A stretch of DNA of 35,727 nucleotides from positions 1 through 35,727 of the forward strand of contig JAKSUY010000011.1 in NCBI GenBank assembly GCA_024408495.1, in the 5' to 3' direction. Origin of the DNA: Bacilli bacterium (GTDB lineage: Bacteria; Bacillota_I; Bacilli_A; RFN20; CAG-826). Both the position numbers and the translations under genes were made by a program. This document shows positions 12,285 to 16,393 of this stretch, in pieces. How positions within the stretch are numbered: position 1 is the first letter of the stretch; each line of letters opens with the position of its first letter. Under the pieces are notes generated by a model. The model made no database searches. It worked only from the letters and a program-made list of their open reading frames with translations, and was not told where the DNA came from.

Positions 12285-13142
12285 ATGAATAAACGTTATG
12301 TAGTTGTAGATACTGGTGGGCTTTCTAAATTAAAAGATACATATGAGGCTTTAGATTATATTAAAGAAGCTGGATATGAAGCCTTTGATTTAACGATTTT
12401 CTGGGAAAGTGCACGTGATTCGCTAGGAGTCGTATCTAATTATCAAGAACTAGTGAAACGTTTTAAGGAGTATATGGATAAATTAGGTTTAGTGTGCCGA
12501 CAAACACACGCCTATTTTACTAGTGGAATCTCTCCTGAATTAATCGAAAAGAGATTTAAGATTATTAGTCAAGATATTAAAGTTAGTAAATTAGTGGGTG
12601 CAAAGATCTGCGTTATTCATCCAATTTGGGAATTATCATTAGATGAAAATGTGAAGTTTATTAAAAGGTTTATTCCTCTAATTCATGAATTAGATATTAA
12701 GCTTGCGATTGAAAATGTATGGGGTGTTAAAGATAATAAACCATCTATTATGTGTTCATCTACTGCTTCTAATTTAAAAGAATTATTAGATAAATTAAAC
12801 GATGATCATATTGGTGCGTGTGTGGATATTGGTCATGCGGAGATGGGTAATTTAAACACTTCCGCATCTAGCATTATTAAAACTTTAAAAGATAAAGTAT
12901 TTACTTTACATATCCACGATAACGATAAATATAGCGATTTGCATCAATTGCCTTATAGCGGTTCTATTGATTTTACTAGTGTGTTAGATGCTCTTAAAGA
13001 GATTAATTATCAAGGCGATATTGTCTTTGAAGTTAGTCATTGCTACATGAATATGCCCAAAGAACTATATCCCGCTACGCTTAGTTATCTTAAGAAGATT
13101 GGTGATTATTTCTTAAATTATTTAAATTTATCTATTGTTTGA
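12285..13142 (+). CDS. Sugar phosphate isomerase/epimerase-like TIM barrel (AP_endonuc_2)
   Basis: 285-residue cytoplasmic protein of the xylose isomerase-like TIM-barrel superfamily. Expected metal and substrate ligands are visible in order: H112 (VIHP), E143 (LAIENVWG), D181 and H184 (CVDIGHAE), H209/H211 (LHIHDND) and E249 (VFEV). Family members interconvert ketoses, inositols or sugar acids; which one cannot be read here. Length is typical. It is transcribed alone from a leaderless-looking promoter between two surface-protein units and converges on the minus-strand island. A role in processing a sugar released by the neighbouring hydrolases is inference. The stop is TGA, which shows that TGA is not recoded. 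Confidence 0.85.
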   Translation: MNKRYVVVDTGGLSKLKDTYEALDYIKEAGYEAFDLTIFWESARDSLGVVSNYQELVKRFKEYMDKLGLVCRQTHAYFTSGISPELIEKRFKIISQDIKVSKLVGAKICVIHPIWELSLDENVKFIKRFIPLIHELDIKLAIENVWGVKDNKPSIMCSSTASNLKELLDKLNDDHIGACVDIGHAEMGNLNTSASSIIKTLKDKVFTLHIHDNDKYSDLHQLPYSGSIDFTSVLDALKEINYQGDIVFEVSHCYMNMPKELYPATLSYLKKIGDYFLNYLNLSIV

Positions 13143-13212: not shown

Positions 13213-14499
13213 TTATTTGTTTAAAACAAGCCAATAACCCGTTTTATTAGAGCCGACTCTTTTTATTCTATTTAATTGTTTTAATTCTTTTACAATCACG
13301 TTTATTCGAGTTGTTCCTAAAGAAGTGATTTTACAAAGTTCATTTGTAGTAACAGATGGTTTTATATTTATGGCTTTTAAGACCTTTATCTGAGATGGGT
13401 TCAGCCCAGAATAATTAGTTTCTCCTCGGTTTAGGGTATATGGAAATTTAAAAATTATATTAATATTATTTTCACTTATATTAAAAGCTTCTTTACCATA
13501 ATGTTTAATTATTTCTGGGATACCGTGTCCGGTTTGTTCGACTAGCCCTAATTGACCAAATATTTTTTGAAGATTTTTATTTATTGGATGACTTATCCCT
13601 TTATAAAACTCTTCTATAGAGCAATCTATAGGTAGGCCACCAGTTGAGATTATTTCAATTCGATCATCGAAGATATAAATTGCCGGAGGAATCATTTTAT
13701 CCCATCTAGTATGTAGACAAGCATTAACCCAAGCCTCTCTCAAAGCAGATTCGTTAAAAAGATGAGTTTCTTTTCTAATTGTTGATGACATATCAACTTT
13801 TGTTTCGTTGAATGACATAGTATAATCCAACGCGTTTTGAAGCGCTAACGCTAAACATTTATACCCAAATTCATTTCTTGAAATAATCTCAGTTTTATCA
13901 GTTCCTTTGAATCTTACTACTTTAATAGAAATATCATTATTATCTGATAATAGGTTTGCTAAAAGATTGAAATTTTTACTTTTGTTTAAAAGCCCAATAT
14001 TTTGCAAAAATGTATTTTTATTTATTGAAAGACCTTTAAGGATATAAAGCTGCGATAATTGATTAAATGTTAAATCTTGATTAGATGATTCGATTTCAAC
14101 AATATTATCGTTTGAGTTTTTAAATATCAGTTGTCTCATTATTTCTGGAGTTATTTTTCTATTTTCATTTCCCGTTCTTATAAAATAATTACCATCTGAT
14201 GAATAAGGTGTATTTGTTCCTTTGGCTTCCACTTTAATTACTATTTTATTTTCGTGCTTTTCTTCAGTTATTTTTGGAACAATAACGGGTTTTATTCTTT
14301 GATGAATTTCTGAACTTATGTCTTTTAATGTTTTATTACCTAAACTAACACCAACTACCGATCCATCATCCTTTACGCCAAAATAAACAACTGCCTTCCC
14401 GTGTTTATTAATCATTGCTGCGATAGATTCCAAGGCCCGAGAAAGTTGACTTAAACTCTCTTTAAATTCAATGAATTCAGTTTCCCTTTCAAATTTCAT
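13213..14499 (-). CDS. AlbA_2 / HATPase_c_4 transcriptional regulator (COG2865-like)
   Basis: 428 residues. An AlbA_2 (Schlafen-like) DNA-binding domain spans about 7-125: E..EFKES, N..GG-like MINKHGKAVVYFGVKDDG, and a terminal Y.R.G.EN. The middle region is lineage-variable. A GHKL/HATPase_c_4 domain lies at about 240-350 (LREAWVNACLH; GLVEQTGHGIPEI), and a C-terminal winged helix at about 370-425. Such proteins are annotated as RecG-like or putative transcriptional regulators, and some accompany mobile or defence loci. ATG 14499 is chosen because AAAGGAAA precedes it and a promoter lies 25 nt upstream. Four copies of an 11-bp repeat overlap that promoter, suggesting autoregulation. It is downstream of, and co-oriented with, the HipA-like gene but has its own promoter. 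Biological role unknown. Confidence 0.85.
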   Translation of the reverse strand: MKFERETEFIEFKESLSQLSRALESIAAMINKHGKAVVYFGVKDDGSVVGVSLGNKTLKDISSEIHQRIKPVIVPKITEEKHENKIVIKVEAKGTNTPYSSDGNYFIRTGNENRKITPEIMRQLIFKNSNDNIVEIESSNQDLTFNQLSQLYILKGLSINKNTFLQNIGLLNKSKNFNLLANLLSDNNDISIKVVRFKGTDKTEIISRNEFGYKCLALALQNALDYTMSFNETKVDMSSTIRKETHLFNESALREAWVNACLHTRWDKMIPPAIYIFDDRIEIISTGGLPIDCSIEEFYKGISHPINKNLQKIFGQLGLVEQTGHGIPEIIKHYGKEAFNISENNINIIFKFPYTLNRGETNYSGLNPSQIKVLKAINIKPSVTTNELCKITSLGTTRINVIVKELKQLNRIKRVGSNKTGYWLVLNK

Positions 14500-14519
14500 T
14501 TAATTCAGTTTCCTTTTTT

Positions 14520-14586
14520 ATTCCACACTTATTCTACACTTTATACTTTGTTTGTCAATATTTTATTCCACACTTATTCCACACTT
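14520..14586 (-). promoter_or_regulatory. Promoter of the AlbA_2 regulator with four 11-bp operator-like repeats
   Basis: On the minus strand: -35 TTGACA (14558-14553), 16-nt spacer, -10 TAGAAT (14536-14531). The plus-strand unit ATTCCACACTT occurs at 14520-14530, 14531-14541 (one mismatch), 14565-14575 and 14576-14586. These are two head-to-tail pairs 45 bp apart flanking the -35; one unit contains the -10. Direct repeats locked to a promoter and about one helical turn long suggest cooperative binding by the adjacent regulator. Confidence 0.7.
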
Positions 14587-14648: not shown

Positions 14649-15833
14649 TTATCTTTTGCGACTTATTTTCTCGTTATTCTGGAAACGTTTTAATAGTTCT
14701 AACTTTTTAAAGAACAATTCTTTAATTAATGAATATCGATTCTTTCCCTCTTCAATATCCTTATCGTAAATTGAAAAATCTGGTTTAATCTTTTTTAAAT
14801 CAATACAGTTTTTGTTTTTGACATATTTTAATAGGTCAATTTCCCAAGTAATAAAATTATGAGTCTTGATATTATAAACATCAATATTCTTCAATTGTTC
14901 ATAATTACAATCATAGAACATAGAATTGCCCATATCATATAGTGGGGCAAAACCAATTAACTCTAAAGTATCGGGATTTCTTAATAAAGCGATGTTATTC
15001 ATGTGGCGGTCTATATTAGTGATTAAAAAGTCACTCATAATCATATAATCAATATATTGATCAAAAACCTCTTCTTTCATTCCGTACTTTAGACAAGCGC
15101 TTTTTAATAAGAAATAGTAACTCCCTTCTTTTATTTTATCGGTTTGTAATAATTCCCAAGCGGAGACTAATTCTACATTCTCGTTACAAAAATTATAAGA
15201 ATAACAACCAATTCCTTCTTTATCATTGCTAGTTTTTATTTGACTTAAATAATATTTAGCAAATTGCTTACATCCTAATTGTTCGTGAAGATTACTCACA
15301 AATACTTCATTTAGACTTTGTTGATAGGATTGACCATAATTACCTTTAATTAGAATTCTCTTTTTATCGCTAGTAATGCACCACTTCTTTTGTAATTCGC
15401 CTTGACTAGACGCAGGCGAAAATTTAGTGTCCTTTCGTAAGTCAACGATATTAGCATCTTCGTTCATGGTCAATTCGCCAAAAATATCAACAAAATCGTT
15501 TTTAAATAGATTTACTTGTTTCCAAGTAATATCGCTATCACGTGGTTTAATCCAATAACAATCAGTTAAAGATAAAGCTAAATTATCAACTAAAACATTT
15601 CCCGTTGAGCTATAGCCTAATCTTTCTAAAGCAGTATCAACTCCATGACGGGATTTTGGAATAGCACGATCTCTCCACCAATCGTGAAATTTAGAATCAT
15701 TCATTTGTCCACCTAGAGGGAAATGAGCTTTATTAATTTCGCTTCGAATAATATGGCTAATCTCACCTGACGCAGATATTTCCATTGAACAGACAACAAT
15801 GTCTTTATGCATTAATAAATATTCATTTTCCAT
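14649..15833 (-). CDS. HipA-like Ser/Thr kinase (toxin-like)
   Basis: 394 residues from the ATG at 15833. A start four codons earlier (15845) is open, but GGAG fits the 15833 start, which lies 2 nt after the upstream HTH gene's stop. Kinase features: ATP-binding strand KRILIKGNYG with Lys, helix NEVFVSNLHEQL, catalytic loop NIDRHMNN (D275, Asn279/280) and the metal-binding PLYDMGNSM. These match the HipA C-terminal kinase fold; HipA toxins phosphorylate glutamyl-tRNA synthetase or related targets and induce dormancy. The N-terminal region differs from E. coli HipA, as in many Firmicute HipA-domain proteins, which may serve in phage defence or regulation. It is co-transcribed with the HTH gene. 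The kinase call is firm; toxicity is inferred. Confidence 0.82.
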   Translation of the reverse strand: MENEYLLMHKDIVVCSMEISASGEISHIIRSEINKAHFPLGGQMNDSKFHDWWRDRAIPKSRHGVDTALERLGYSSTGNVLVDNLALSLTDCYWIKPRDSDITWKQVNLFKNDFVDIFGELTMNEDANIVDLRKDTKFSPASSQGELQKKWCITSDKKRILIKGNYGQSYQQSLNEVFVSNLHEQLGCKQFAKYYLSQIKTSNDKEGIGCYSYNFCNENVELVSAWELLQTDKIKEGSYYFLLKSACLKYGMKEEVFDQYIDYMIMSDFLITNIDRHMNNIALLRNPDTLELIGFAPLYDMGNSMFYDCNYEQLKNIDVYNIKTHNFITWEIDLLKYVKNKNCIDLKKIKPDFSIYDKDIEEGKNRYSLIKELFFKKLELLKRFQNNEKISRKR

Positions 15834-15835
15834 CT

Positions 15836-16237
15836 TTATCTCCAATGGATTTGATCCTTCTTATCATATTTCAAATCACGATCAAAGCGATCCTGAAGAC
15901 GATAAAAATCGTTAAACATATCCTTGATATAGATTGGTAGATTCCTCTTTATTACACCATCAAGAGATTCAGTAAAAGTAATGGCATTGCCCTTTTCATC
16001 AAATATCTTTTTACTTTTAGTGTCGATATAGTATTTTTTATCATTATCCGTTTTAATTACTTCAAGATGTTTATTATAGGCAGGAATATTGGCTTCAATT
16101 AGATTAATTACATATTTAGGCGGAGTAGAAACAAATTGTTCCCATTTTCTTAAGGTGCTTAGCGGAATGTTAAAAGCTTTTGCGAATTCGCTTTGCGACA
16201 TCTTGCTTGCTAATCTTAATTCTTTAATTAATGCCAT
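15836..16237 (-). CDS. HTH (XRE-type) regulator, HipB-like partner of the kinase
   Basis: 133 residues from the ATG at 16237. A reading frame extends upstream to 16393, but that start would lie before the promoter (-10 at 16274-16269), and AAGGAT sits 6 nt before 16237, so the shorter start is right. Residues about 1-45 form a helix-turn-helix (LASKMSQSEFAKAFNIPLSTLRKWE), followed by a pre-kinase-style tail (KYYIDTKSKKIFDEKG.A). Its stop is 2 nt before the HipA-like kinase start, the usual antitoxin-toxin order. Two near-identical 17-bp sites overlap its promoter and SD, consistent with autorepression. DNA binding follows from the fold; neutralisation of the kinase is inference. Confidence 0.82.
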   Translation of the reverse strand: MALIKELRLASKMSQSEFAKAFNIPLSTLRKWEQFVSTPPKYVINLIEANIPAYNKHLEVIKTDNDKKYYIDTKSKKIFDEKGNAITFTESLDGVIKRNLPIYIKDMFNDFYRLQDRFDRDLKYDKKDQIHWR

Positions 16238-16240
16238 GAC

Positions 16241-16297
16241 TATATCCTTTTTGGTTACGATTAAATAAATTATATCCAATTTGGTTAGTAAGCGCAA
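16241..16297 (-). promoter_or_regulatory. Promoter of the HTH-HipA operon with two operator-like sites
   Basis: Minus strand: -35 TTGCGC (16297-16292), 17-nt spacer, perfect -10 TATAAT (16274-16269). A 17-bp plus-strand site TATATCC.....GGTTA occurs at 16241-16257 and 16271-16287 (15 of 17 identical, exactly 30 bp apart). Each is a partial dyad TATCC-N5-GGTTA, reminiscent of E. coli HipB operators (TATCC-N8-GGATA) with a shorter spacer. The inner site contains the Shine-Dalgarno; the outer covers spacer and -10. Confidence 0.75.
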
Positions 16298-16393
16298 GAT
16301 AATTTTATTAAAATTTATGGTATTAAATAAACGATATTCCGCTGGTTTGAATTTACTATTACATAGTATTTTTCTTTTTGCCATAATTCTCAA

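Follow-up and report, generated by a model that had tools for sequence, protein, structure and literature searches.

MarR repressors classically bind palindromic operators as dimers. At the sites of ChxR, a regulator of the OmpR/PhoB type, repeats follow one another head-to-tail at intervals of about one helical turn; winged helices of this type insert the recognition helix into the major groove and contact the minor groove with the wing (PMC3960148). Proteins that join an AlbA_2 domain to a HATPase domain (COG2865-like) carry no annotation beyond "RNA-binding domain-containing" or "ATP-binding" protein. They were found in 98 of the 392 genomes of the phylum searched, mostly without a constant neighbour. 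In the literature open without subscription, we found no DNA site described for COG2865, AlbA_2 or PF04326 proteins, and where these proteins were named there, they were annotation items or Schlafen/SAMD9 parts; an earlier description of such operators in subscription literature is possible.

The repeat array and the regulator gene

The window, that is, the whole stretch of 35,727 nucleotides analysed here, contains on its minus strand a gene for a protein of this kind, preceded by short direct repeats. The features are:

Positions 13213-14499, minus strand: regulator gene, 428 aa, with SLFN_AlbA_2, HATPase_c_4 and winged helix (Pfam; model pLDDT 89)
Positions 14152-14484, minus strand: SLFN_AlbA_2 domain (PF04326), residues 6-116 (Pfam E 3.6e-21)
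Positions 13489-13683, minus strand: HATPase_c_4 domain (PF13749), residues 273-337 (Pfam E 2.2e-13)
Positions 13222-13404, minus strand: winged helix, residues 366-426, predicted reader of the repeats (model and co-variation with repeat words)
Positions 14576-14586, minus strand: predicted operator unit 1, AAGTGTGGAAT, exact copy upstream of the -35
Positions 14565-14575, minus strand: predicted operator unit 2, AAGTGTGGAAT, exact copy upstream of the -35
Positions 14553-14558, minus strand: -35 hexamer TTGACA, 6/6 consensus, 16-bp spacer, between the pairs
Positions 14531-14541, minus strand: predicted operator unit 3, AAGTGTAGAAT, one mismatch, includes the -10
Positions 14531-14536, minus strand: -10 hexamer TAGAAT, consensus match, inside the deviating copy
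Positions 14520-14530, minus strand: predicted operator unit 4, AAGTGTGGAAT, exact copy over the expected transcription start
Positions 14510-14515, minus strand: likely ribosome-binding site AAGGAA, 10 nt 5' of the ATG, by sequence

On the plus strand, direct reading and pattern matching gave exact copies of ATTCCACACTT at 14520-14530, 14565-14575 and 14576-14586, and ATTCTACACTT, one C>T mismatch away, at 14531-14541. The start-to-start distances are 11, 34 and 11, and TRF called two repeat pairs of period 11. The original prediction of four head-to-tail copies was right in positions and number, but one copy carries a mismatch. In the gene sense, the unit is AAGTGTGGAAT(A), and the order is AAGTGTGGAAT-AAGTGTGGAAT, 23 bp including TTGACA, and AAGTGTAGAAT-AAGTGTGGAAT. 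Coherently with what had been predicted, the two pairs flank the -35 and include the -10, which lies in the third unit. Indeed, the mismatch of this unit (TGGAAT to TAGAAT) improves the -10, so that the deviating copy itself supplies it. Apart from the array, 14460-14517 holds an imperfect direct repeat (about 26-28 bp) that extends over both the start codon and the ribosome-binding site of the gene.

When the 149-bp intergenic region was shuffled 2000 times with dinucleotides preserved, four copies (non-overlapping, of any 11-mer, with at most one mismatch) were never reached; three, the most seen in any shuffle, occurred in 56. Across the 1.28-Mb assembly, the paired unit (at most three mismatches) occurs three times, twice at 14520-14586 and once elsewhere, and a reversed control pattern had no match in the whole assembly.

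The PF04326 and PF13749 matches of the 428-aa protein both exceed the Pfam cut-off, and MarR_2 (PF12802, residues 364-418) matches weakly, at 24.3 bits against a cut-off of 27; no receiver or Trans_reg_C domain was found by Pfam. With AlbA_2, HATPase_c_4 and a C-terminal winged helix, the protein is COG2865-like by Pfam and model. The AlphaFold2 model (mean pLDDT 89, 42 sequences) places the recognition helix at residues 396-408 and the wing between strands 412-415 and 422-425, with the tip GSNKTG at 416-421. A PDB sequence search gave no match; the best solved structural match of the model is DIP2311 (3lmm), with the N-terminal part resembling SAMD9/Schlafen domains and the C-terminal part MarR. 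In the comparison with Schlafen-type nucleases, the modelled AlbA_2 fold appears to match SAMD9/SLFN, and E6, E8, E11 and K13 are nearly invariant among homologues.

A convergent gene (12285-13142) lies downstream. Upstream, on the same strand, lies a pair formed by an HTH gene (15836-16393) and a HipA_C-like gene (14649-15845), whose product matches the PADLOC candidate PDC-M03A (E 4.5e-14); the two genes (14649-16393) possibly form a toxin-antitoxin-like or defence unit.

Arrays and unit words in front of homologues

A scan of genome contigs gave 80 related loci, and whole-genome searches added many more; the contig scan was seeded with GSNKTGYW, and part of the wing conservation seen in this set is therefore retrieval bias. 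By eye, repeats of 11-12 bp are present in most homologue upstream regions. With no sequence assumed, a tandem array (p<=0.01) was detected in 74/184 homologue upstream regions versus 6/223 control regions, taken from upstream of other genes at these loci, and the period was 11 or 12 in 69 of the 74 significant arrays. When spaced and inverted copies were allowed (p<=0.025), the counts became 119/184 and 30/223; about a third of the homologues had no significant repeat of any kind. In a second set, fetched later, arrays were found in 35/58 homologues (p<=0.02). The original prediction had proposed a search for tandem 11-bp repeats upstream of homologues and would have been refuted if these lacked any repeats; such arrays are present in both sets, and in the first they are far commoner than in the control regions.

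Of 174 pairs of neighbouring copies in homologue arrays, 161 are spaced by 11 or 12 bp, and of 20 wider spacings 13 are 21-24 bp, so the copies share roughly the same helix face. The unit of about one helical turn proposed for the window (11 bp) thus recurs as a period of 11-12 bp. Units overlap positions -36 to +5 of the best promoter match, promoters being consensus matches, in 52 of 78 homologues; in some, every copy is upstream of the best -10 match. Copies occur in both orientations relative to the gene, most of them upstream of the expected start, and one clade has an inverted copy between the -10 and the ATG.

Other arrangements were also found. In Persicobacter plasmids, the gene stands directly behind another coding sequence with no array in front; on a Pseudanabaena plasmid, the homologue comes immediately after a DNA methyltransferase gene, with no gap; and a Mycoplasmopsis plasmid copy beside hsdS/hsdR has a TGACAAAACTAG array. 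Distant homologues are arranged differently. The distant paralogue of the window genome (L005, wing GINRSTYY) has the long direct repeat GCAACGGAAACATTTGAGTTG at L005:1380-1465, with repeats 31 bp apart and no 11-bp array, and its relatives L106, L194, L199, L218 and L222 have repeats 31-32 bp apart. Long repeats of this type are predicted to be a second operator class in the superfamily. Furthermore, seven loci (L019, L022, L048, L072, L150, L154 and L203) have a second cluster of the same word farther upstream, tens to more than 100 bp from the promoter array, which might serve to loop the DNA or to control a divergently oriented gene.

The variable part of the unit is a word of about 8 nt that is particular to each lineage and is usually joined to a constant ATAA(A). 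In most arrays, this core is preceded by the lineage word, such as AGTGTGGA (the variable word of the 14520-14586 unit), AGTAGCAA, AGTATACC, AGTGGGTG, ATGGCGGA or ATGATAAG, among others. Paralogues within one genome differ in word, as with the three words of one genome (G029). Proteins with a GPDKGGYW wing (L093, L095-L097 and L285) share TTTTCTGGTTG arrays without ATAA, and those with a K[KR] wing often have ACTTT(A/G) in place of ATAA, which suggests that the wing sets the constant core of the unit. The K[KR] wing goes with an ACTTT core in 8/10 versus 34/102 (p=0.006, post hoc); this link is only a lead, because ATAAAGT words also include that string.

The domain that the repeat words follow

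Among 78 non-redundant homologues with arrays, word similarity correlated with the identity of the winged helix (0.49) much more than with that of the middle part (0.23) or of AlbA_2 (0.10). Within the winged helix, the strongest pairs link two residues of the recognition helix to bases of the word: residue 401 to positions -6/-7 and residue 397 to -5. An Asn-Lys wing (418-419) accompanied the ATAA core in 44/47 versus 8/31. Position-wise mutual information was also high for AlbA_2 columns, via shared ancestry, and we therefore relied on partial Mantel, held-out and tree tests. The partial Mantel correlation for the winged helix given AlbA_2 was 0.48 (p=0.002), and that for AlbA_2 given the winged helix was not significant (r=0.035, p=0.19).

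Three rules were fixed before new genomes were fetched, and all were borne out in the new homologues: Asn-Lys wing with ATAA (13/14 versus 7/20, p=0.001), Arg401 with G at -6 (6/7 versus 1/14, p=0.0009) and Pro397 with ATA (5/5 versus 4/16, p=0.006); these p-values overstate independence, as some new homologues are close to the first set. With one vote per clade, the associations were not significant (R401 p=0.24, wing p=0.11). A tree built from the N-terminal parts shows two gains of R401 (L040 and L052) that coincide with gains of G-6 (p=0.025), in a clade where 26 other members have neither, and two gains of P397 coincide with ATA (p=0.014). After correction for ancestry, a residue-level code is therefore a preliminary proposal. 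At the level of domains the assignment is firm: the co-variation points to the C-terminal winged helix, not AlbA_2, as the reader of the repeats. The original prediction gains support in its candidate DNA site for an AlbA_2/HATPase regulator, since the repeats co-vary with the regulator's winged helix, and is corrected in the reader that its wording implied, as the words track the MarR-like C-terminal domain.

The proposed operator and its relation to known systems

Taken together, the repeats are very probably the autoregulatory operator of the 13213-14499 gene, bound head-to-tail by the winged helix of its product, which would repress it. Each 11-bp unit would accommodate the C-terminal winged helix of a single subunit: recognition helix 396-408 would read the variable word AGTGTGGA from the major groove, and the constant ATAA would be read in the adjoining minor groove by the wing GSNKTG (416-421). 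Subunits placed head-to-tail, perhaps cooperatively, on one DNA face across the -35, the -10 and the start would exclude RNA polymerase. The gene would thus repress itself until a signal, possibly a ligand, releases it, with the HATPase domain as a possible sensor. For the relieving signal and the role of AlbA_2, the ATPase domain and E6/E8/E11/K13 are the obvious places to look.

The array overlaps the regulator's own promoter in the window and in the 52 of 78 homologues mentioned above, and the direction of control is most probably repression; because these promoters are consensus matches, repression rather than activation is what we infer. We consider it unlikely that the array, with the same reader, activates the promoter, or that a ligand switches between activation and repression. 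The upstream pair (14565-14586) does lie just before the -35, where activators bind, many PhoB-type sites do activate, and the homologues with all copies upstream of the best -10 match fit this too. However, the -35 is perfect, units 3 and 4 lie over the -10 and the start, which is unsuited to an activator, and the core promoter is overlapped in most of the homologues compared. A different reader is far less probable still: AlbA_2-type domains can bind nucleic acids, and a SAMD9 domain of this fold has been solved with DNA (7ksp), but AlbA_2 identity does not track the word given the winged helix, and the best residue-base links fall on helix 396-408.

Equally improbable is that the repeats serve another host protein, replication or an RNA leader. 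A general host factor would not explain why paralogues in the same genome carry different words or why the words track the winged helix. Short tandem repeats are typical of iterons, and "iteron-like", as the array was first called, describes its geometry well; nothing points to replication, as the contigs are chromosomal, the neighbours varied and no replication gene recurs among 72 neighbour proteins. Part of the array is near the expected transcript start, which would suit an RNA leader, but both orientations occur and most copies are upstream of that start; spacing, orientation and promoter overlap make this role unlikely for most arrays and agree with an array of protein over the promoter. 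Finally, the region is A+T-rich and the window has other short tandem repeats, yet the shuffles, the strong excess over control upstream regions and the co-variation with a protein domain leave chance a negligible probability.

Returning to the autoregulatory operator, its location at the regulator's own promoter, the lack of a constant neighbour and the rarity of the paired unit in the rest of the genome fit a regulator that would mainly control itself. In 58 relatives, the paired unit was found at the own promoter, at the promoter of a 73%-identical homologue (in G024) and in two matches inside coding sequence. The third site of the own assembly (L003:1501-1521, one mismatch) lies between Asp23-like and MgtE-like genes, and no paired unit was found upstream of the second mgtE copy or of same-genus orthologues whose upstream DNA was read. 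It may be a second target or, as the assembly is 6% contaminated, a contamination. Homologues had no constant neighbour gene and no recurring partner except AAA_14/DUF4143 in 5/72. The idea of a phage-borne switch was dropped, as viral-contig scans (three alignments) were practically without homologues and plasmids and phages had few.

More tentatively, these proteins may form a family of self-addressed regulators with private tandem operators, in which the winged helix serves dosage only and AlbA_2 is the effector, possibly a nuclease. If so, the operator word would be predictable from a few recognition-helix and wing residues, several paralogues could stand side by side without cross-talk, and the level of the Schlafen-like AlbA_2 effector would have to stay low. 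In any case, the arrays offer a predicted binding site for many AlbA_2/HATPase proteins from sequence alone, assigning DNA reading to the winged helix would free AlbA_2 for another role, and the residue-base pairings offer a first step towards a specificity code, so that the DNA-binding code of this little-known family may become readable from genomes. Single genomes with several different words may hold naturally orthogonal pairs of regulator and operator.

Among described proteins, COG2865-like AlbA_2/HATPase proteins, including DIP2311, share the overall domain build. The C-terminal domain resembles MarR structures in fold and matches MarR_2 weakly, but the units are mostly direct repeats, with inverted pairs in some homologues (one clade). 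Plasmid iterons are likewise short tandem direct repeats near one helical turn, whereas the present array is on a chromosomal contig, inside a promoter and without a linked replication gene. OmpR/PhoB operators (pho box) also consist of direct repeats spaced by about one helical turn, the period of the present arrays being 11-12 bp. The window protein, with AlbA_2 and HATPase_c_4 in place of receiver and Trans_reg_C domains, does not belong to that family; moreover, the arrays described here reach eight or more copies, the word differs between close paralogues, and the site is mainly at the regulator's own promoter.
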